Shown one piece after another: positions 41,956 through 64,000 of a stretch of DNA of 64,000 nt. Position numbers and translations under genes: made by a program. The DNA lies in the NCBI GenBank assembly GCA_019634695.1, contig JAHCAW010000004.1:1-64000 (forward strand). Direction: 5' to 3'. Source of the stretch: Candidatus Sumerlaeia bacterium. GTDB lineage: Bacteria > Sumerlaeota > Sumerlaeia > SLMS01 > JAHLLQ01. The notes beneath the pieces were generated by a model, which was given only the letters and a program-made list of their open reading frames with translations, was not told the origin of the DNA and made no database searches. How positions within the stretch are numbered: position 1 is the stretch's first letter; each line of letters starts with the position of its first letter.

Positions 41956-42948
41956 TTACTCGACGCCGGTGGCGAAGCGCAGATTCTCGAACTCCGGCGG
42001 AGCCTGGAAGCGCGAGTTGTTCATGAAGACGTCGTCGGCGGTGCCGGCCACGCCATCGGCGCCGCCGGAAACGATCGTCAACTGCCCACTCTCGCGCCGG
42101 ATCAGGAAGTCGTTCTCCCAGCCATCCTTCGAGAACGCCTCTTCAAGCATCCCGGATTCCACGATCTGGGTGATCGTCTGAGGCACCTCGCCCCGGAAGG
42201 TGTTGTAATCGATCAGCGCCTGCAGGGCCAATTCGATGCGGCGGTGCGTGATCAGGAAGGCACGCTCGTCGGCCGACAGCGACTGCATCCGGCGCTGTGC
42301 GGTTGACATCGTCATCTGCAAGTGCAGCCATCTGGCCATCGAGACGCGCTGGTCCATGCCCTGTTCGTCGACGATCGGTTGCTTGATGACGAACAGGCCG
42401 GTGAAGCAGATCAGGCAGACGAAGACCAGCACGAGGATGCCGATGATGGGCCCGATGCCGCGGCCCTCGGGTTCCTCCTCGGGCATCCCTTCGCGGATGG
42501 TCAGCGGCTTGCGCTCGAGCTTCTCCTTCTGCACGTACATGTCGGCGAGCGGGTCGTGCCCGAGGGTGTGTGCGGGCTCGGCGTAGCCTTGTTCCTGCTC
42601 GGTGCCGTACTGTTGGTCATACTGCTGATCGTAGGCCTGCTGGTCGTACTGCTGGTCTTCAGCCGGAGCGGCGTAGGCGTTGGGGTCGTATGCGTTGGGA
42701 TCGTAGGCGGCCGGTTCGGCGACGTAGTCCTGCTGGTCGTAGTTCTCGTGGCCCCCCGCATCGGGAGGTCCGCCGTAGGCGTTAGGATCGTATTCCTGCT
42801 GTTCGGCGTAGGCGTTGGGGTCGTAGGCCGGCGAATCGCCGTACGATTCGGGGGCGAGGGGCTCGGAACCCTCCGCGTAGGGCTGGCCGCCGTACTCGTT
42901 TGGGTTGCTCTCTTCGCCCTCATGGTACGGCTGGCGCGGATCGGACAT
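41956..42948 (-). CDS. Single-pass membrane protein with DPNAY-repeat tail and GspG-like outer domain
   Basis: 330 residues. Residues 1-160 are hydrophilic and disordered, full of YDPNAY and YDQQ repeats (41-114). A membrane helix spans about 166-188. The outer 140 residues contain an alpha stretch (S-x-DERAFLITHRRIELALQAL-like) and end with DGWENDFLIRR and SGGADGVAGTADD, the loop typical of the type II secretion major pseudopilin GspG. There is no prepilin peptidase leader. It follows the GH18 gene's 3' end by 113 bases in the same direction. A homologue-free lineage-specific protein is the alternative. Confidence 0.8.
   Translation of the reverse strand: MSDPRQPYHEGEESNPNEYGGQPYAEGSEPLAPESYGDSPAYDPNAYAEQQEYDPNAYGGPPDAGGHENYDQQDYVAEPAAYDPNAYDPNAYAAPAEDQQYDQQAYDQQYDQQYGTEQEQGYAEPAHTLGHDPLADMYVQKEKLERKPLTIREGMPEEEPEGRGIGPIIGILVLVFVCLICFTGLFVIKQPIVDEQGMDQRVSMARWLHLQMTMSTAQRRMQSLSADERAFLITHRRIELALQALIDYNTFRGEVPQTITQIVESGMLEEAFSKDGWENDFLIRRESGQLTIVSGGADGVAGTADDVFMNNSRFQAPPEFENLRFATGVE
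42607..42828 (-). repeat. In-gene YDPNAY/YDQQ repeats
   Basis: Residues 41-114 of the 41956-42948 product consist of near-repeats: four DPNAY units, two of them in tandem, followed by a run of YDQQ units. Low-complexity cytoplasmic-side tail with high Tyr, Asp and Gln content. Confidence 0.85.
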
Positions 42949-49937: not shown

Positions 49938-50717
49938 ATGGGCGAGGCGATTCAGCGATTGGGGAATCTGCTGGTGCGGCGGGCTTTTTCGGCCTCCGAG
50001 TGGGAGGCCAGTTGCTCGGGCAGTCGGGCGCTGCTGGTGCATGGCGGCGCTGCCGCCACCGTCGGCGTCGTGGTCGCCACGAACCTGTGGGCCGCGCACA
50101 GCGGCGACACCGCGCCATGGGAGGTGCAGATCACCATGGCGAGCGCTCCCGGCATTCTTGCTTTTCTGGTCTCCGCCGTCGCCGTCCTGGCGTGGTGGCT
50201 GCGCGAGAGCACGCGGGCGCGCATGGCCGAGCTGCACATGACGCCCGTCATGCCCTCGGACTTCGCGCTCGCCGCGATTGCCCCCGTCCGACTGGTGCTT
50301 GCGGCAGCCTGCCTGCCCGCGGTGCTGGCCCCCCTCTTCGCGGCTCTCTACGGCAGGCTGATCGGCATCCCGTATCTCGGCGCCTTCGACATGTGGACGC
50401 TGGTCAGCCTGTCCAATCTGCTGACGGCCCTACTGGCGCCGCCGTTGGTCCTGCTGTTTGCAGTCGTGATTCGTAGTCCGGGCTGGTCGCTGCTCGCTCC
50501 CCTGACGTGTGGAGCACCGTTCTTCATCTGGCTCGTGGCGGGCATCGTGATGCCACGCTTGCCGGTGGTGATGGAGGAGCTCGTGCCGCAGTACCTGGCG
50601 ATCACGGTGGCGGTGCAACTCGTAGCCTTGGGCCTTGTCGAGTGGTATCTGCCGGGCTTGGTCGATCGCTATGCCGCCCGCCACTGCGAGGCGCGCCTGG
50701 AAGGGCACGGCGAATGA
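49938..50717 (+). CDS. ABC-2-permease-like membrane protein without ATPase partner
   Basis: 259 residues with about six hydrophobic helices (residues 25-45, 55-85, 100-130, 140-165, 180-205, 215-240 approximately). Between helices 2 and 3 an R-E-S-TRARMAELHMTPV segment resembles the R-E-x-GT-x-E-LL-x-TP coupling motif of ABC-2 permeases. No ATP-binding protein is encoded nearby. ATG 49938 has GGAGGGGG about 6 bases upstream and is preferred over an upstream in-frame ATG. Its stop overlaps the start of the first GspG-like gene (ATGA), so it opens a four-gene unit. Substrate unknown. Confidence 0.8.
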   Translation: MGEAIQRLGNLLVRRAFSASEWEASCSGSRALLVHGGAAATVGVVVATNLWAAHSGDTAPWEVQITMASAPGILAFLVSAVAVLAWWLRESTRARMAELHMTPVMPSDFALAAIAPVRLVLAAACLPAVLAPLFAALYGRLIGIPYLGAFDMWTLVSLSNLLTALLAPPLVLLFAVVIRSPGWSLLAPLTCGAPFFIWLVAGIVMPRLPVVMEELVPQYLAITVAVQLVALGLVEWYLPGLVDRYAARHCEARLEGHGE

Positions 50718-51406
50718 GTGGACTCGCCCGCCGCCTGCGAGACGTTCCGCCGTCGGCGCTCATCCTCGGCGTTGTGTCGCTGTTGCTGGCGACGCTGGCA
50801 CTGGTGTTCGTGGCGATGCACGATCGTTGGGGCACGCGCGCCCTTCTTGCGCGGACGCATCGCGACTTGGCGACCATCGTGATGGCCATCGAGACGTACT
50901 ATCTCGACGTCAGTTTCATGCCGGCGATGGCGATGGATCCCCGCGAGACCCTCGATGCGGGACGGCTACCCCCGGACATGCCTCCCGCCCGCTCGTTCCG
51001 CCTGCGCCATCAGACGGCGTTGATGACGCTGACCACGCCCATCACGTACCTGACCCAGTATCCCGAGGATCCCTTCACGCGTCCGCACCGTCTCACGTAT
51101 CGCTACTACACCGCTGCCGGGCACGGGTGGTTCGTCGGCTCGTTCGGTCCCGACGCCGATTTCGCCAGCGGGGGGCAGTTGATGTGGCACGAAGGCGACG
51201 TTATCACCCCCGTGCCCACCACGGCCACGGCGCCCAACCCGCCGACGCCCGATGCCGCGCTCGAGCGTCTCTATGTTCCGTGGCAGCGGCCGCCTCTGGG
51301 CGCCGAACTCCTTTCCGGCGCCGGACCGAACGGCGCCTACACGTACGATCCCACGAACGGCACCACCTCGACAGGCGACATCTGGAGAGCAGCGTACTAC
51401 CCATGA
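50714..51406 (+). CDS. Anchored GspG-like protein, copy 1
   Basis: 230 residues. One membrane helix (about 15-36), then an alpha helix rich in R-T-H-R-D-L and the GspG-type body: AIETYYLDVSFMPAM, TLTTPITYLTQYPEDPF, LTYRYYTAAGHGWFVGSFGPDAD and the end YDPTNGTTSTGDIWR. Those last elements are the hallmarks of type II secretion pseudopilin bodies. The normal prepilin leader (G-F-T-L-x-E) is not present; the helix follows only a short Arg-rich N-terminus. It starts in the stop of the permease-like gene and its own stop overlaps copy 2. Confidence 0.85.
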   Translation: MSGLARRLRDVPPSALILGVVSLLLATLALVFVAMHDRWGTRALLARTHRDLATIVMAIETYYLDVSFMPAMAMDPRETLDAGRLPPDMPPARSFRLRHQTALMTLTTPITYLTQYPEDPFTRPHRLTYRYYTAAGHGWFVGSFGPDADFASGGQLMWHEGDVITPVPTTATAPNPPTPDAALERLYVPWQRPPLGAELLSGAGPNGAYTYDPTNGTTSTGDIWRAAYYP

Positions 51407-52098
51407 CCGACCACGAGTCCTCCGCACCTGCGCCACATACCTCCGGGCTGCCGCCCTCCCTCTTCGTGGCGGCTGTCGTCCTGATCCTCGTGCTCGTCCT
51501 GGCGCTGGTGCTGACTTCGTTTCAGGTGCAGTGGAAGACGCGTGCGATGGTGGCGCGCGCGCATCGGGACATGCGCACTCTGGCGACTGCCATCGAGGCC
51601 TACTACGTGGACTGCATGCAGTATCCCGCGATGACGCTCGATCGACACTTCATGCCGGACCGCGACCGCATTCCTCCGGGCGTCCCACCCGGGCGCACCT
51701 TTCACGCGGCCCATACAACAGGACTCTCCACCATCACGACTCCCGTCGCCTACATGGTACGCTACCCCGTCGATCCCTTCACGCGGCCCCATGGGTTGAC
51801 GTATCGCTACTATCGTCAGAGGAGCGGATGGATGCTGGGCTCCTACGGCCCGGACGCGGACATGCACACCGGCGGCCAGCTCCTGTGGTACGAAGGGGAC
51901 ATTCAGGTGCCAGGCACACATTACGGACGCGATGACGTGGTCCTGCCCGACGCGACGATCGAGCGCGTGTACGATCCTTACCGTCTTCACGCCTCCACGC
52001 AGGAACTGTTGGGAGGCTCCGGTCCCAACGGCGCCTACACATACGATCCCACCAATGGCATTTTCTCGGCCGGCGACGTGTGGAGAGTGAAGAATTAG
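51403..52098 (+). CDS. Anchored GspG-like protein, copy 2
   Basis: 231 residues, a paralogue of the preceding product with the same order: helix (about 20-43), AIEAYYVDCMQYPAM, TITTPVAYMVRYPVDPF, LTYRYY-x-GWMLGSYGPDAD, and YDPTNGIFSAGDVWR at the end. Sequence identity is highest in the body and low in the N-terminus and spacer. The start overlaps the stop of copy 1 (ATGA). Only 2 bases separate its stop from the superoxide dismutase-like gene. Again no prepilin peptidase leader, so membrane anchoring rather than pilus assembly is likely unless another start is used. Confidence 0.85.
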   Translation: MTDHESSAPAPHTSGLPPSLFVAAVVLILVLVLALVLTSFQVQWKTRAMVARAHRDMRTLATAIEAYYVDCMQYPAMTLDRHFMPDRDRIPPGVPPGRTFHAAHTTGLSTITTPVAYMVRYPVDPFTRPHGLTYRYYRQRSGWMLGSYGPDADMHTGGQLLWYEGDIQVPGTHYGRDDVVLPDATIERVYDPYRLHASTQELLGGSGPNGAYTYDPTNGIFSAGDVWRVKN

Positions 52099-52100
52099 CC

Positions 52101-53114
52101 ATGCCCGTGCGCACAACCCGCCGCAGGTTTCTGGGTGGCTGCCTCGGGACGGCAGCCCTGTGGTTGCTGGGCTGCGGAGGCGGCGACGATGGCGAGGGGG
52201 ACATCGTGCGCGAGGCCCTGCGCGCCAGCGCCCGGCGGCCCGGTCCCGCGATCGATACTCTGGCCGCCCTGACACCGCCGGCGCGCCGGCCCGCGAAGCC
52301 ACTACCCTTCGGCCTCGACGACGTGCCCGGCTTCTCCGCCGCCACCCATCGCATCCACTGGGAGCACCACTACCTCGAATACCTGTACCGCTGGGAGCGC
52401 GGCGAGCGCGACCTGCTCGTCGAGGCCGCCGAGCTCGCTCGCACTCCGCCCGAGGCCTTCGACGCCGCCCGATGGCGCCTGCTCGAAAGGGCCGAGCGCA
52501 CCCGGCAGGCCGCCAACATGATCGTCCTGCACGAACTCTACTTCGCCCTTTTCTGGAGCGGCGCCGAGCGCGCCATCCCGCAGCCCGCCTTCGACCGACT
52601 CGTGCGCGGACTCGGCGACGACTGGCCGGCATGGCTCCTCGCCTTCGAGGATGGCACCGTGCTGCGCTGGCGCGAGGAGGACTCGGCTTCGTTCGGCCCG
52701 GCGCCGCTGGCCGGCATCGACACGCCGGACCACACCTGGCGGCTCGACTTCGCCTCCCAAGCCGACGCGCTGCATCAGGTGCTGCGCAACATGCCGATCG
52801 CGCAGGGCGACCTCTTTCTGGAGGGCCGCCTGATCGGTCCGTTCGATCCCGAGCCACCCACCGACCTGACGCTGGCGAGCGGCGACGACTGGCAGGCCGC
52901 CGTGGACGATCTGCGTGCGGCCGTGGGTCTTGCGCCCGACAGCGACTCGGCGCGCGGGTTGGCGCTCGCCGCGGGCCCCGACGGACAGGTGGCATTGCTG
53001 GTGCGGCGAGGAACGGCGTTCGTCACGCCGGCACTTCTTCTGCCGCGTCTGCACTGGGGCATCTGGGAGCACTCGCCCGTGGCCGTCGTCCGCGGCATGG
53101 CCGCGACAACGTGA
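52101..53114 (+). CDS. Exported superoxide dismutase-family (Fe/Mn) homologue with Tat/lipobox leader
   Basis: 337 residues. The N-terminus has T-R-R-R-F-L (Tat-type, residues 6-11) and a lipobox-like LLGC25. The body aligns with Fe/Mn superoxide dismutase: H86 and H90 with Tyr94 match SodB His26, His30 and Tyr34; H144 (VLHE) matches His73; D207-x3-H211 (DTPDH) matches the Asp/His of DVWEH; WPAWLLAFEDG matches the WxWL-DG strand. Thus all four metal ligands remain. The second-shell Gln position is Met140, so activity is uncertain. It follows the GspG-like copy 2 by 2 bases and ends at a bidirectional hairpin. Confidence 0.83.
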   Translation: MPVRTTRRRFLGGCLGTAALWLLGCGGGDDGEGDIVREALRASARRPGPAIDTLAALTPPARRPAKPLPFGLDDVPGFSAATHRIHWEHHYLEYLYRWERGERDLLVEAAELARTPPEAFDAARWRLLERAERTRQAANMIVLHELYFALFWSGAERAIPQPAFDRLVRGLGDDWPAWLLAFEDGTVLRWREEDSASFGPAPLAGIDTPDHTWRLDFASQADALHQVLRNMPIAQGDLFLEGRLIGPFDPEPPTDLTLASGDDWQAAVDDLRAAVGLAPDSDSARGLALAAGPDGQVALLVRRGTAFVTPALLLPRLHWGIWEHSPVAVVRGMAATT

Positions 53115-58251: not shown

Positions 58252-59463
58252 TCAGTGGCTCCCGACCAGCGACTCGGCCAGGTGCGGATCGCGCAACGGC
58301 ACGAGCGGCGCCGCAGCCATCGTATGCAGCACCGCTGCCGCCATCACGCACCCCACGCCGGCCACGCACGCCAGGTCCAGCACATGGAACGGCACGCCCT
58401 CGGGACTGAACGACGGCATGACGAGCCAGTACAGGTCCAGCCAATGCGCCACGAGCAGCCAGGCCGACCAGAAGCCCAGCACCGGCAGGCGCCGCTTCAT
58501 GTGCCGCGACATCAGGCCGAAGAACGGCAGCAGGAAATGCCCGAGCACCAGCGCGATCGAGACAACCTGCCAGCCGTGTTGCTGGCGATGCAGCACCCAG
58601 ATCGTCTCTTCCGGGATGTTCGCGTACCAGATCAGCATGTACTGCGAGTAGGCAATGTAGGCCCAGAACATCGTAAAGGCGAACAGGAAGCGGCCGATGT
58701 CGTGATAGTGTCGCGGCGTGACAAGATCGACGAGGACACCGCCGCGCTGGAGCGCCATGCACGCCAGCGCCAGCACCGCGAGGAAGCCGACCATGCAGCC
58801 GGCGAAGAAGTGAACGCCGTACATCGTGCTGAACCACTCGACGTCGAGCGACATGAGTGCGTCGAAGGCGAAGTAGGTGAGCAGGAGGGCGAAGAGCACG
58901 AGCGCCGGAGCGCTCAGGCGTTGCAGGCGCATCGTGGCGGCCGGTTGCTCCTCGCCATCCTGGCGCACGGAGAGCCGCAGCATCAGGCGCGCGAGCAGGC
59001 TCCAGCCCGCGAAGTAGATCGCCACGCGCACGACGACGAATGCCGGATGGAACCAGGCCTGCTTGAAGGCGGGCAGGTGATGGTGGTCGTCATGGTGATG
59101 CCCGATCCAGTCGTAGAGGCTGCCGGCGTGCAGCAGGATCGGGATGAACAGGATCGCCAGGACGGGCACGGCGGCGGCGATGCACTCGGCGACACGGCGG
59201 ACGACGACGCTCCAGCGCGCGCGCGTCAGGTGCTGGATCAGGACGAAGCCCTGCGCGCCCAGGGTGATGCTGAGGAAGTAGGTGTAGGCGACGAGGTATG
59301 CATGCGCGAAGTGGCGGAAGCCGTCGCCGCGCAGCGCGCCGAGCACGTAGGCAACCGCGAGGGCGACGGCGCCGGCGGCGAGCAGCGGCACGACGGCGCG
59401 ACGCGCGCGGTCGCCGAGGACCTCACGCTCCAGATGCAGGGCGGTGATGTTGATCGAGGACAC
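58252..59463 (-). CDS. actF: Alternative complex III subunit ActF
   Basis: 403 residues with about ten membrane helices and His-rich loops (WIGHHHDDHHH). It matches ActF, the second NrfD-like-sized integral subunit found beside actC in quinol:cytochrome c/other acceptor oxidoreductases. The GTG start at 59463 is supported by GGGAGAG about 9 bases upstream and lies 3 bases after the actE stop. Within the complex it is expected to help quinol binding and proton handling (inference from known ACIII structures). The product has conserved aromatic stretches such as FLFAFTMFWAYIAYSQYML. Confidence 0.9.
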   Translation of the reverse strand: MSSINITALHLEREVLGDRARRAVVPLLAAGAVALAVAYVLGALRGDGFRHFAHAYLVAYTYFLSITLGAQGFVLIQHLTRARWSVVVRRVAECIAAAVPVLAILFIPILLHAGSLYDWIGHHHDDHHHLPAFKQAWFHPAFVVVRVAIYFAGWSLLARLMLRLSVRQDGEEQPAATMRLQRLSAPALVLFALLLTYFAFDALMSLDVEWFSTMYGVHFFAGCMVGFLAVLALACMALQRGGVLVDLVTPRHYHDIGRFLFAFTMFWAYIAYSQYMLIWYANIPEETIWVLHRQQHGWQVVSIALVLGHFLLPFFGLMSRHMKRRLPVLGFWSAWLLVAHWLDLYWLVMPSFSPEGVPFHVLDLACVAGVGCVMAAAVLHTMAAAPLVPLRDPHLAESLVGSH

Positions 59464-59466
59464 GGG

Positions 59467-60105
59467 TTACTCTCCCGAGGCGCTGGATGCGGAGTGGGTC
59501 GCTTGCAGGGCGCGCACGTGGGCGATGATTGCCCAGCGGTCCGCCGGCGGAATCTGCGAGCCGTGCGCCGGCATGCTGCGGATGCCGTGCGTGATGGACT
59601 GGAAGAGGTGGCCGTTGGGGCGCTCGACGACTTCGGTAGAGGTTAACGATGTGGGCACCACCCATGCCGCCTCGGCGCGCCGCAGGGCGGCCTGCGAGAC
59701 CGTTCCGTCGCCGGCGCCATTGGGACCATGGCAGGGCGCGCACGAGATGGCGAAGCGCTCGGCGCCGCGCGCGAGCAGGCGCGCATCGACGACGACGGCC
59801 TGCGGGTAGTCCTCGATCCACGCCTCGCCGGCGGTGCCCTGCTCGAAGGCTTCGTCGGGCGGCAGGGGAGACCACGCGACGGTGCCCGGGACGGGGGGGC
59901 GTTTGGCGCGGCCATCGGCGAAGGCCGACGCAGGCGCCTGGCCGCGATAGCGCGCCTGGTTGTCCATGTCGAGCACCGGGTGGATGCGCGGCTGGCGCTT
60001 GGGCTGCGTGCGCATGGTGGTGGCGACCGCGAACGGCGCGGCCAACACGGCGAACGCGCCCAACGCGACGACGACGAGCACTGCGAACAGGATCGTGCGG
60101 TTCAC
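59467..60105 (-). CDS. actE: Alternative complex III subunit ActE, monohaem cytochrome c
   Basis: 212 residues: N-terminal hydrophobic anchor (about 5-28), then a class I cytochrome c domain with CAPCHG (haem c attachment) and a likely axial Met in RSMPAHGSQI. It should accept electrons from the ActA/ActB part and hand them to a terminal oxidase or soluble cytochrome. The GTG start 60105 has GGAGGAG upstream, overlapping the end of actD. 3 bases before actF. Confidence 0.93.
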   Translation of the reverse strand: MNRTILFAVLVVVALGAFAVLAAPFAVATTMRTQPKRQPRIHPVLDMDNQARYRGQAPASAFADGRAKRPPVPGTVAWSPLPPDEAFEQGTAGEAWIEDYPQAVVVDARLLARGAERFAISCAPCHGPNGAGDGTVSQAALRRAEAAWVVPTSLTSTEVVERPNGHLFQSITHGIRSMPAHGSQIPPADRWAIIAHVRALQATHSASSASGE

Positions 60106-60109
60106 CGGA

Positions 60110-60655
60110 TCACTCCTCCAGTTCCTCGATTCGGACGGGGCCGAGCGATTCGAGCAGCGTGCGCGTGCCGGCCGGATCGAAGGCCGCGTCGCCCGCTTCG
60201 ATCACCAGGAAGAAGCGGTCGTTCGTCACGCGTCGGAAGCGTTCGGACTTGAAGGCCGGATGGTAGAACGCCGGCAGCCAGTTGAGCAGCAGCATGCCGA
60301 CGAAGGCGGTGATGGCGCTGAACAGGATGGTGAGCTCGAAGGCGACCGGCACGTTGGCGGGCCAACTGAACATCGGCTTGCCGCTGATCAGGAAGGGATA
60401 CGCGATCCCGTTGGTCCATGCCTGCAGGACCACGGCGACGACGAAGCCCGTGGCGCCCGCGCCGAAGACGAGCCACGGCAGGATCGTCGGGCGAATCGCC
60501 ATGGCCTCGTCGAGTTCATGCAGCGGGAAGGGCGAGTGGCAGTCGAAGCGGCGATAGCCCGCACCGACGACCGCGCGGGCGGCCTCGACGAGTTCGCCGG
60601 GAGTCTCGAACTCGGCCATCAGGCCCCAAGGGCCGGCCGGACGGGTGGCTGTCAT
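60110..60655 (-). CDS. actD: Alternative complex III subunit ActD (DUF3341)
   Basis: 181 residues: a soluble N-terminal part with [15 protein letters not shown] and [15 protein letters not shown], then two membrane helices (about 60-82 and 100-122) and a C-terminal alpha+beta tail with F-FLVIEAGD. This is the DUF3341 family, an ActD subunit. ATG 60655 overlaps the actC stop by 4 bases; actE begins 4 bases after its stop. ActD pins the soluble and membrane parts of ACIII together in known structures. Confidence 0.94.
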
Positions 60656-62106
60656 GGATGCACCTCCGCGTCGAACTCGCGCGCGTGTCCGTCGCGCGCC
60701 ACGCCCTGCGCCCGGCGCGCCGGCGGCATCACGCACTTCACCTCCGCCATCGCCACCATCGGCAGGAACCGCAGGAACAGCAGGAACAGCGTGAAGAACA
60801 GGCCGAAGCTGCCGAGCATCATTCCGAAGTCCACCCAGGTCGGGGCGAATTGCCCCCAGCTCGACGGCAGGAAGTCGCGGCTCAGCGACGTGATCACGAT
60901 CACGTACCGCTCGAACCACATGCCGACGTTGACCAGGATCGCCACGACGAACATCACCAGCAGGTTCGTCCGCATGCGCTTGAACCAGAAGACCTGCGGC
61001 ACGATCACGTTGCAGGTGAACATGATCCAGAAGGCCCACCATGACGGGCCGAACGCACGGTTCAGGAACGTGAAGGTTTCGATCTCATGGCCGCCGTAGG
61101 CCGCGATGAAGATCTCGGTGACGTAGGCATAGCCAACCATGAAGGCGGTGGCGAGAATGATCTTGTTCATGTTCTCGAGCACGCGCATCGAGATGACATG
61201 GCGCAGGCCGAAGAACTGGCGGCAGGGAACAAGCAGCGTGACGACCATCGCGAAGCCGCTGAAGATGGCGCCAGCGACGAAGTAGGGCGGCAGGACGGTG
61301 GTGTGCCAGCCCGGGAGCTGCGAGACCGCGAAGTCGAAGCTGACAACCGAGTGGACGCTGAGCACCAGCGGCGTGGCCAGCGCGGCCAGCAGCAGATAGG
61401 CGACCTCGAAGCGGTGCCAATGGCGCTGCGAGCCGTTCCAGCCCAGCGCCAGCACGCCGTAGATCGTCGCGCGCAGCCGCGTCCGCGCCCGATCGCGCAG
61501 TGTCGCAATGTCCGGCACCATGCCCATGTACCAGAACATCGCCGACACGGAGAAGTAGGTGCTGACCGCGAAGACGTCCCACAGCAGTGGACTGCGGAAG
61601 TTCGGCCACATCTGCATCTGGTTCGGCAGCGGGAACAGCCAGTAGACCACCCAGATGCGGCCGACGTGAATGGCCGGGAAGATGCCGGCGCACACGACGG
61701 CGAAGATCGTCATCGCCTCGGCGAAGCGGTTGATGCTCGTGCGCCAGCGTTGGCGGAAGAGGAACAGAATCGCCGAGATCAGCGTCCCCGCATGGCCGAT
61801 GCCGACCCAGAAGACGAAGTTGACGATCGGGAAGCCCCACGCCACCGGGTTGTTGTTCCCCAGCACGCCGATGCCCGATACGATCATGTGGACGATCAGC
61901 AGGACGAACATCAGCGCGAGGACGAGCGAGACGCCGAAGGCGATGTACCAGGCGCGCGTCGGGCCCGGCTTCTCGACGATCGAGCAGACGGCGTCGGTGA
62001 GCGAGCCGTAGGTCTCGTGGTGGGGGAGCAGCGGCGCGTGCTCGGCCGGGTTGTCGGTCGTGTTGTGCAGCGGTTCGCGCGTGGGATCGAATGCCAGGAG
62101 GCTCAT
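60652..62106 (-). CDS. actC: Alternative complex III subunit ActC (NrfD-like)
   Basis: 484 residues with about ten helices and the NrfD/PsrC pattern: [16 protein letters not shown], the R[11 protein letters not shown] loop and [14 protein letters not shown]. It is the quinol-oxidising membrane subunit that takes electrons into the Fe-S subunit ActB. The start overlaps the end of actB by 4 bases (ATG 62106); the stop overlaps actD. Frame continuity upstream is ignored since the family start is MSLLAFDP-like. Confidence 0.96.
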
Positions 62107-64000
62107 CGGGTATCGGCCTCGCGTGTCGTGTCGGGATGGGGATTCTCGAGTCGTGCGAGGTAGCGCACGCGGGCCTTGAGGTTGAGTTCCTCGAGGATCT
62201 CGTAGGCGCGGGGGCCGGTGAAGCGGCGGACGAAGTCGTCGCCCTCGATCGACAGGTCGCCGAACTGGATGGCGCGGGCCGGGCAGGCCTGCGCGCAGGC
62301 GGGCAGGATGTCGGCTCCGGCCAGCGTCCGCCCCTCGCGCCGCGCCGCGATGCGCGCCTGCTGGATACGCTGGATGCACAGCGAGCACTTCTCCATCACG
62401 CCGCGCGCGCGCACCGACACCTCCGGGTTCATCCGCATCTTCTCGATCTCGTCCAGCCGCCCGTAGTAATCGTAGTAGTTGAAGCGCCGCACCTTCACCG
62501 GGCAGTTGTTCGAGCAGTAGCGCGTGCCGATGCAGCGATTGTAGACCATCTCGTTGACGCCCTCGCGGCTGTGCACGGTCGCCGCCACGGGGCAGACCTG
62601 CTCGCACGGCGCGTTCTCGCAGTGCAGGCAGGTCATCGGCTGGTGCCGCACCTTTGGGTTGGCGACGTCGCCGCGATACAGGCGATCGATGCGCAGCCAG
62701 TGCATCTCGCGCCCGCGGCGCACCTGGTCCGGGCCGACGATCGGCACGTTGTTCTCCGCCTGACAGGCGAGCACGCAGGCCGCGCATCCGTTGCAGCGGT
62801 TCAGGTCGATCGTCATCGCCCAGCGATGGCCGTCGTGCTCGAAGGGCTTCCAGAGGGCGACCTGCTTGGGCGCGTGCTTGGGGGCCGCGACGCTGGCGGG
62901 TTCGGCGGCGAAGCGCGCATACGTCGCCTCGCGCACGAGTGTCTTGCCGCGGCGCTGCGCCTCCTTGCGGCCCAGCTCGTCGATCAGGAAGTGGTCCGCC
63001 GTGCAGGCGAAACGATAGCGTCCGCCGACGCGTCGCATCGTGGCCGAGTTGGCACGCCATGGCGCGGCGCTCGTGCGCAGCGGATACGCATTCCAGCCGA
63101 TGTCCTTCACTGCGGCGCCGGGCATCGTCCGGCCATAGCCCAGCGGCACAATTACCGTGCCCTCGGCCTGTCCCGGCGCGATGTACACCGGCAGCGTGAC
63201 GCGGCCGCGGCCCGCGGCGAGTTCAATCATGTCGCCGGTGCGCAGCTTCTCGCGCGCCGCCGTCGTCGGGTCCACGAACGCCGCGTTGCCCCACGTCAGC
63301 TTCGTCAGCGGATCGGGCAACTCCTGCAGCCACGGATTGTTGCCGAATCGTCCGTCGTGGACCTTGCCGTCGGGGCGGAAGAGCAACTCGAGCGCCGACG
63401 CGCCGGCGCTCGCGCGAGCCAGCAGGCCGACGGCTTCCGCCATGCCGGCGGGATCAGGGGCCGGGACGGAGCGCGGCGCGTCCGGTGCGGCGACGAATCC
63501 GGTGCGCAACCATTCGGTCCACTCCTCGGGTCGTCCCCACGTTTCCTGCACGAGTTCGTGCCCGGAGGTCTTCTCAAGGCCGAGCACTCGCGCAAGGAAC
63601 TCGTCCACCGTGCGCCCTTCGTACAGCGGAGCGATCATCGGCTGCACCGCGCACCGCGATCCGTCCCAGCCCGTTGCGTCCCCCCAGGACTCAAGGAAGT
63701 GCGCCCGCGGCGCATGCCACTGGCACAACTCCGACGTCTCGTCGTGATGAAGCCCGAGGCGGATCGACGCGCGCGCCGAGCGAATCATCCCGGCAAGGTC
63801 GCGGTCCGCGGGTCCGTCGTAGGCCGGGTTGCCGCCCAGCACGAGCACGCACTCGACGGGGCCAGCCGCGCGGGCCGCGTCGAGGCGCTCCCAGGCGTTT
63901 GCCGTCTCCGCCGCCTGCGGATCCGCAATCCAGCGACAGCAGGTCGCGTCGCTGCCGAGCGCGTGATTGATCGCGGCGATGGCCGCGTGCACCGCCGGCG
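62103..64000 (-). CDS. actB: Alternative complex III subunit ActB, C-terminal part (5' end outside window)
   Basis: About 632 codons, open to the right edge, of the molybdopterin-like/Fe-S fused subunit (family members are about 1000 residues). The visible start has a Mo-bisMGD-like fold remnant without cofactor ligands; the last ~240 residues carry ferredoxin-type sets: [15 protein letters not shown]-x-APCEQVCP, [16 protein letters not shown] and CAQACP. These house four Fe-S clusters in known ACIII. The GTG visible at 63992 is internal. It overlaps actC by 4 bases. actA (multihaem cytochrome) would be expected to lie beyond the edge. Confidence 0.94.

Follow-up and report, generated by a model that had tools for sequence, protein, structure and literature searches.

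Two leaderless GspG-like proteins beside a predicted exported superoxide dismutase homologue in a four-gene unit of Sumerlaeota

The window analysed here, a stretch of 64,000 nucleotides from a Candidatus Sumerlaeia genome, carries four closely packed genes on its forward strand whose products form an odd set: a membrane protein, two proteins resembling the pseudopilin GspG and a predicted exported homologue of superoxide dismutase (SOD). Do these genes act together and, if so, in what? The parts, SodFM4-like SOD and GspG-like proteins, are known, and they stand in a combination for which no description was found. Our literature search found no paper joining SOD, pseudopilin and ABC-2, and the Sumerlaeota literature names SOD only in general lists of stress functions.

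A tightly packed unit with an orphan membrane protein

The host genome (G000) is metagenome-assembled, with a size of 4.35 Mb and a completeness of 86%. The features of the unit are listed in Table 1. ATGA overlaps of 4 bases join gene 1 to gene 2 and gene 2 to gene 3, and a gap of 2 bases separates genes 3 and 4. Coding-like codon positions were observed in all four genes, with a GC3 of 0.78-0.87 versus 0.86-0.95 in the neighbours. Coordinates, spacing and GC3 thus all agree with the four-gene unit that the earlier note had described.

Table 1 Features of the four-gene unit. Positions are those of the window.
Feature	Positions	Strand	Basis
Gene 1 (P0001, 259 aa), orphan membrane protein with six hydrophobic segments	49938-50717	+	
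Gene 2 (P0002, 230 aa), leaderless GspG-like protein	50714-51406	+	profile and alignment with relatives
Gene 2 membrane anchor, residues 15-33, replacing the type III prepilin leader; lacks Gly-1 and Glu5	50756-50812	+	
Gene 3 (P0003, 231 aa), leaderless GspG-like protein, tandem sister of gene 2	51403-52098	+	
Gene 3 membrane anchor, residues 20-38; lacks Gly-1 and Glu5	51460-51516	+	
Gene 3 C-terminal tail DPTNG..S.GDVWR, residues 215-228	52045-52086	+	near-invariant in leader-bearing and leaderless relatives
Gene 4 (P0004, 337 aa), SODx, predicted exported SOD-like lipoprotein	52101-53114	+	
Tat motif TRRRFLG and lipobox LLGC (Cys25) of SODx	52101-52175	+	read from translation
SOD N-terminal alpha-hairpin domain, about residues 65-152, HXXXHY motif	52293-52556	+	
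N-domain ligand His86	52356-52358	+	
N-domain ligand His144	52530-52532	+	
SOD C-terminal domain, about residues 160-235, interdomain helix deleted	52578-52805	+	
C-domain ligand Asp207	52719-52721	+	
C-domain ligand His211	52731-52733	+	
Second degenerate SOD C-terminal-like domain, about residues 260-337, without ligand loop	52878-53111	+	three-sequence profile

The unit begins 123 bases after dapA-dapD-dapB, and a large FG-GAP repeat protein gene is convergent with it. No promoter-like site was found for the unit, and terminator-like matches around it were at the level expected by chance. Its insertion site cannot be defined; the synteny of the dapADB flank is not conserved in relatives. 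Genes resembling an alternative complex III respiratory operon (58252-63992, -), including an NrfD-like gene (60652-62106), lie on the opposite strand at a distance of about 5 kb.

Gene 1, preceded at a short distance by a GGAGG stretch, encodes hydrophobic segments at about residues 32-50, 67-85, 119-137, 160-178, 186-204 and 220-238. Its sole Pfam match was ABC2_membrane_4 (PF12730) with E=0.34 and 11.3 bits against a cut-off of 27, and no homologue at E<=1e-3 was found among 40 relatives. The AlphaFold model of the protein alone had a pLDDT of 50, and the fold search with it was empty. Accordingly, the ABC-2-like identity claimed for gene 1 was not supported, and we dropped the term "permease-like".

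It is most improbable, in our judgement, that gene 1 is nevertheless an ABC-2 permease with its ATPase encoded elsewhere and that the unit exports a lipoprotein or a metal. Its six segments and the PF12730 match resemble such permeases, and in another genome (G012, contig C70; L073/L178, 400-4185) a leaderless GspG-like gene is divergent from genes for an ABC ATPase and a large membrane protein. However, the profile match is not significant, the unit contains no ATPase gene, and the second locus described below lacks a counterpart of gene 1. Whether ABC transporters regularly accompany leaderless GspG genes was also considered; as a rule this was rejected, the divergent case on C70 being the only one.

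GspG-like proteins without a prepilin leader

Genes 2 and 3 are sister paralogues (50% identity) in a large Sumerlaeota family of GspG-like (T2SSG) proteins. Gene 3 matched PF08334 (T2SSG) with E=7e-5 and 23.3 bits, above the 21-bit cut-off, whereas gene 2 reached only 15.8 bits (E=0.015). Over most of its length, gene 3 shared 39-49% identity with Sumerlaeota proteins whose GFTLIE leader is intact, and most of the closest relatives carry a perfect type III leader (MKKLRGFTLIELL...). These leader-bearing relatives align with both genes through the anchor, and the Gly before the cleavage site and Glu5 are missing in both. The S.GPD.D motif and the near-invariant DPTNG..S.GD..R tail are retained despite the loss of the leader. 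The earlier description of two GspG-like proteins with plain anchors in place of prepilin leaders is therefore borne out by PF08334 and the alignment. Compared with known GspG pseudopilins, which share the homologous body and the S.GPD.D motif, the two proteins differ in having no cleavable leader or Glu5, in an N-terminal tail before the anchor and in the DPTNG extension; their scores against the equivalog model TIGR01710, 25.9 and 14.3 bits, are far under the cut-off of 88.85.

In type IV pilins, Gly-1 and Glu5 are required for processing and assembly. The genome encodes a prepilin peptidase; with the leader absent, the products of genes 2 and 3 should not be processed by it. Gene 3 has no positive charges ahead of the anchor and many behind it, so that the body could face the cytoplasm, a pattern that does not settle orientation.

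Many genomes of the phylum have about 30-50 matches each to the family, and the tree places the loss of the leader at several separate events. Leaderless forms include proteins with plain anchors, with multi-span anchors (L062 and L069) and with an apparent signal peptide only (L169), as well as large exported proteins that contain the body (L170, L173, L175 and L176). Hence, a leaderless GspG-like protein is a recurrent trait of the phylum and not peculiar to this unit. A scan of named genomes with P0003 returned one Sumerlaeota locus only.

Several further members of the family were observed. The window encodes another leaderless GspG-like protein of 330 aa (41956-42948, -), whose anchor is preceded by a long N-terminal tail that is acidic and rich in Y and Q; this protein gave 23.2 bits with PF08334 in the genome-wide search and was absent from the Pfam scan at E<=0.001. 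Tandem arrays of overlapping genes for 2 or 3 leaderless proteins, each with several N-terminal membrane spans, occur at L062 (1-3812; G005, contig C45) and L069 (82-1511; G006, contig C115). GspG-like bodies are also found within large exported proteins of about 580-770 aa (L170, L172, L173, L175 and L176), a modular reuse of the pseudopilin body in this phylum. In many genomes, a leader-bearing GspG-like gene lies near or adjoins a glycosyltransferase-like gene whose motif resembles GGIERRLVAVLP; this is a conserved locus (L033-L037, L043, L046, L047 and L049).

A divergent SOD homologue with a second C-terminal domain

SODx denotes the set of three proteins P0004 (gene 4), P0005 and P0006, the latter two coming from the second locus. 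P0004 alone was difficult to place: the Pfam scan gave no match, single-sequence searches for relatives gave nothing usable, and a PDB search returned only two SODs with E=0.076 and 1.2, which are not significant. When the three sequences were joined in one profile, SODs were matched with E=1e-9. His86, His144, Asp207 and His211 of P0004 align with the canonical metal ligands, and all four are also present in P0005. The SOD homology claimed for gene 4 was thus confirmed with profiles.

The SOD fold itself, proposed in the earlier note as a subject for structure models, was supported by the sequence profiles and not by the model, which had a pLDDT of 51 and was confident in the N-terminal hairpin only. 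A fold search with this model gave SOD-only matches; these are partly circular, SODs being in the alignment.

Export of P0004 is predicted from TRRRFLG and LLGC, both seen by eye; the NCBIfam model TAT_signal_seq gave only E=1.9, below the cut-off. The helix before the SOD C-terminal domain is deleted in both P0004 and P0005. Furthermore, the second half of the C-terminal extension matched as a second SOD C-terminal domain with a score of 51 (E=1.5e-7) using the three-sequence profile, whereas the highest score among 30 column shuffles was 16; the profile support is weakest for P0004 itself.

A second-sphere Gln or His that coordinates water is present in all SodFM subfamilies (PMC10172142). 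In SODx, this residue is replaced at the C-terminal position by Glu in P0004 and by Arg in P0005, the N-terminal position has no Gln, and the WEHAYY motif is lost. As read from the alignment, this loss argues against ordinary SOD catalysis, not against metal binding. Since the metal site is kept and the water-coordinating residue is gone, the activity of SODx is probably altered.

These same losses, together with the ligand-free second C-terminal domain and the absence of three of the four ligands from P0006, are also what would be expected if SODx were a pseudoenzyme, that is, a surface module for binding proteins or ligands with a duplicated C-terminal domain and a structural or vestigial metal site. 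We regard this as unlikely, though still a serious contender, because P0004 and P0005 keep all four ligands at very low overall identity, which argues for selection on metal binding.

HXXXHY in place of HXXXHH is a mark of SodFM4 (PMC10172142). P0004 carries HXXXHY and LHELYF, and the best PDB match of P0005 was 1COJ, the Aquifex pyrophilus-type SodFM4 enzyme (E=1.3e-9). In the SOD tree, SODx had a support of 96 and grouped beside the SodFM4-type SODs of G201 and G128, which share the HXXXHY/LHELYF features; the branches are very long and the placement is tentative. Tentatively, then, the closest known relatives of SODx appear to be SodFM4-type SODs. SODx differs from SodFM4 in the deleted interdomain helix, the replacement of Gln/His with Glu/Arg, the lost WEHAYY motif and the added degenerate C-terminal domain, and P0004 also in its predicted export and lipid anchoring. 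Tat-exported Fe/Mn-SODs also exist in the phylum, one of them in the same genome (G000, contig C46). In contrast to SODx, they retain HXXXHH, WEHAYY, an ordinary length and mostly a C-terminal NQ/NH motif, and they form a separate clade.

Recurrence of the pairing and what the unit may do

A second locus was found by fetching the neighbourhoods of GspG-like genes. On contig C390 of G013, a genome of the same class as the source genome and of another family, two SODx genes, P0005 and P0006, flank a directly adjoining array of three leaderless GspG-like genes (P0007-P0009). A PF02777 search separately picked C390 as its one non-canonical weak match; P0005 matched this family with E=2.7e-4, above the curated cut-off. 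P0005, also a predicted exported protein, has a GTG start and no twin-arginine motif, and P0006 is membrane-anchored.

The SODx profile was searched over 40 genomes of the phylum and about 350 others, and P0004, P0005 and P0006 were the only full-length SODx genes; the remaining strong matches are confined to the part of the profile that corresponds to ordinary SOD. Since no SODx was present elsewhere in the searched genomes, all SODx genes found are next to leaderless GspG genes, in a tandem array at both of the two loci. In the phylum of G051 there was no match, in a search without a positive control that carries little weight. Of the gene order that the earlier note had put forward for a check in relatives, the GspG and SOD pair was thus found at G013, whereas the full four-gene order was seen nowhere else among the 40 phylum genomes.

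With 36-50 GspG matches in about 4,000 genes, the chance of such a neighbour is roughly 2% per gene, and that of two chance adjacencies is about 3e-4, a rough estimate from a small sample of two loci. This estimate and the tight gene overlaps weigh against a chance lineage-specific cluster, in which the two GspG duplicates and the orphan genes next to them would be unrelated and share no function. Such a cluster would fit the abundance of GspG-like genes, the lack of clear homologues of P0001 and P0004 in sister genomes and the unconserved gene order around dapB, which indicates that genes reshuffle freely; we consider it decidedly unlikely. As a finding, the unit goes beyond a chance cluster and falls short of a described system.

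On these sequences, the pairing of SODx with leaderless GspG-like proteins looks functional. The leaderless proteins of the two loci fall on different branches of the GspG tree (moderate support), and the association may therefore have arisen twice.

A divergent PilT-like ATPase gene (L080, 8024-9001, +) adjoins the SODx operon of G013. Together with the prepilin peptidase and the many leader-bearing relatives in the genome, it would fit a reading of the leaderless proteins as uncleaved tip or platform parts of a type II secretion or type IV pilus machine, with SODx as its substrate or surface cargo. We find this very unlikely, because genes 2 and 3 lack Gly-1 and Glu5 and no pilus-machine gene was recognised among the annotated genes surrounding the four-gene unit.

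We prefer, at somewhat short of an even chance, a reading in which pseudopilins that do not polymerise hold a Tat-exported metalloprotein of SOD fold in a static complex of the envelope. SODx would fold and load Fe or Mn in the cytoplasm, be exported in folded form by Tat and be anchored by lipid. In the tandem GspG-like proteins, the cleavable prepilin leader would have been swapped for a plain anchor, so that the prepilin peptidase could not process them and they would not enter a pilus. With the folded body and the DPTNG tail kept, and presumably facing the periplasm, they would contact SODx as fixed membrane scaffolds or receptors, and gene 1 would be a lineage-specific membrane partner. 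The complex might act through a changed redox or metal chemistry or through binding that depends on the metal, probably not through textbook superoxide dismutation.

Against this static complex stand the number of loci, only two, the single occurrence of the full four-gene set and the reading of Tat export in P0004 from its motif only, as well as the lack of a gene 1 counterpart at G013, the charge pattern of gene 3, the GTG start and missing twin-arginine motif of P0005 and the poor SODx model outside the N-terminal hairpin. The envelope complex suggested in the earlier note accordingly survives in part: a SOD-fold lipoprotein with a GspG scaffold fits and was strengthened by the G013 locus, and the membrane exporter was not supported. 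A further-reaching version, which we hold as doubtful, is that pilin-like proteins serve as permanent, non-polymerising anchors for a SOD-fold metalloprotein of changed chemistry, that the pairing arose at least twice and that the partnership itself is under selection.

Taken together, the occurrence of the SODx and leaderless GspG pairing in two distantly related genomes suggests an undescribed cell-envelope module. If this is true, the module would represent a use of the type IV pilin fold outside the pilus, as a fixed anchor and not a polymer subunit, and a SOD lineage that has kept its metal ligands, lost the superoxide-tuning residue and gained a second C-terminal domain. Both points would be directly testable with small, expressible proteins of an uncultured phylum.
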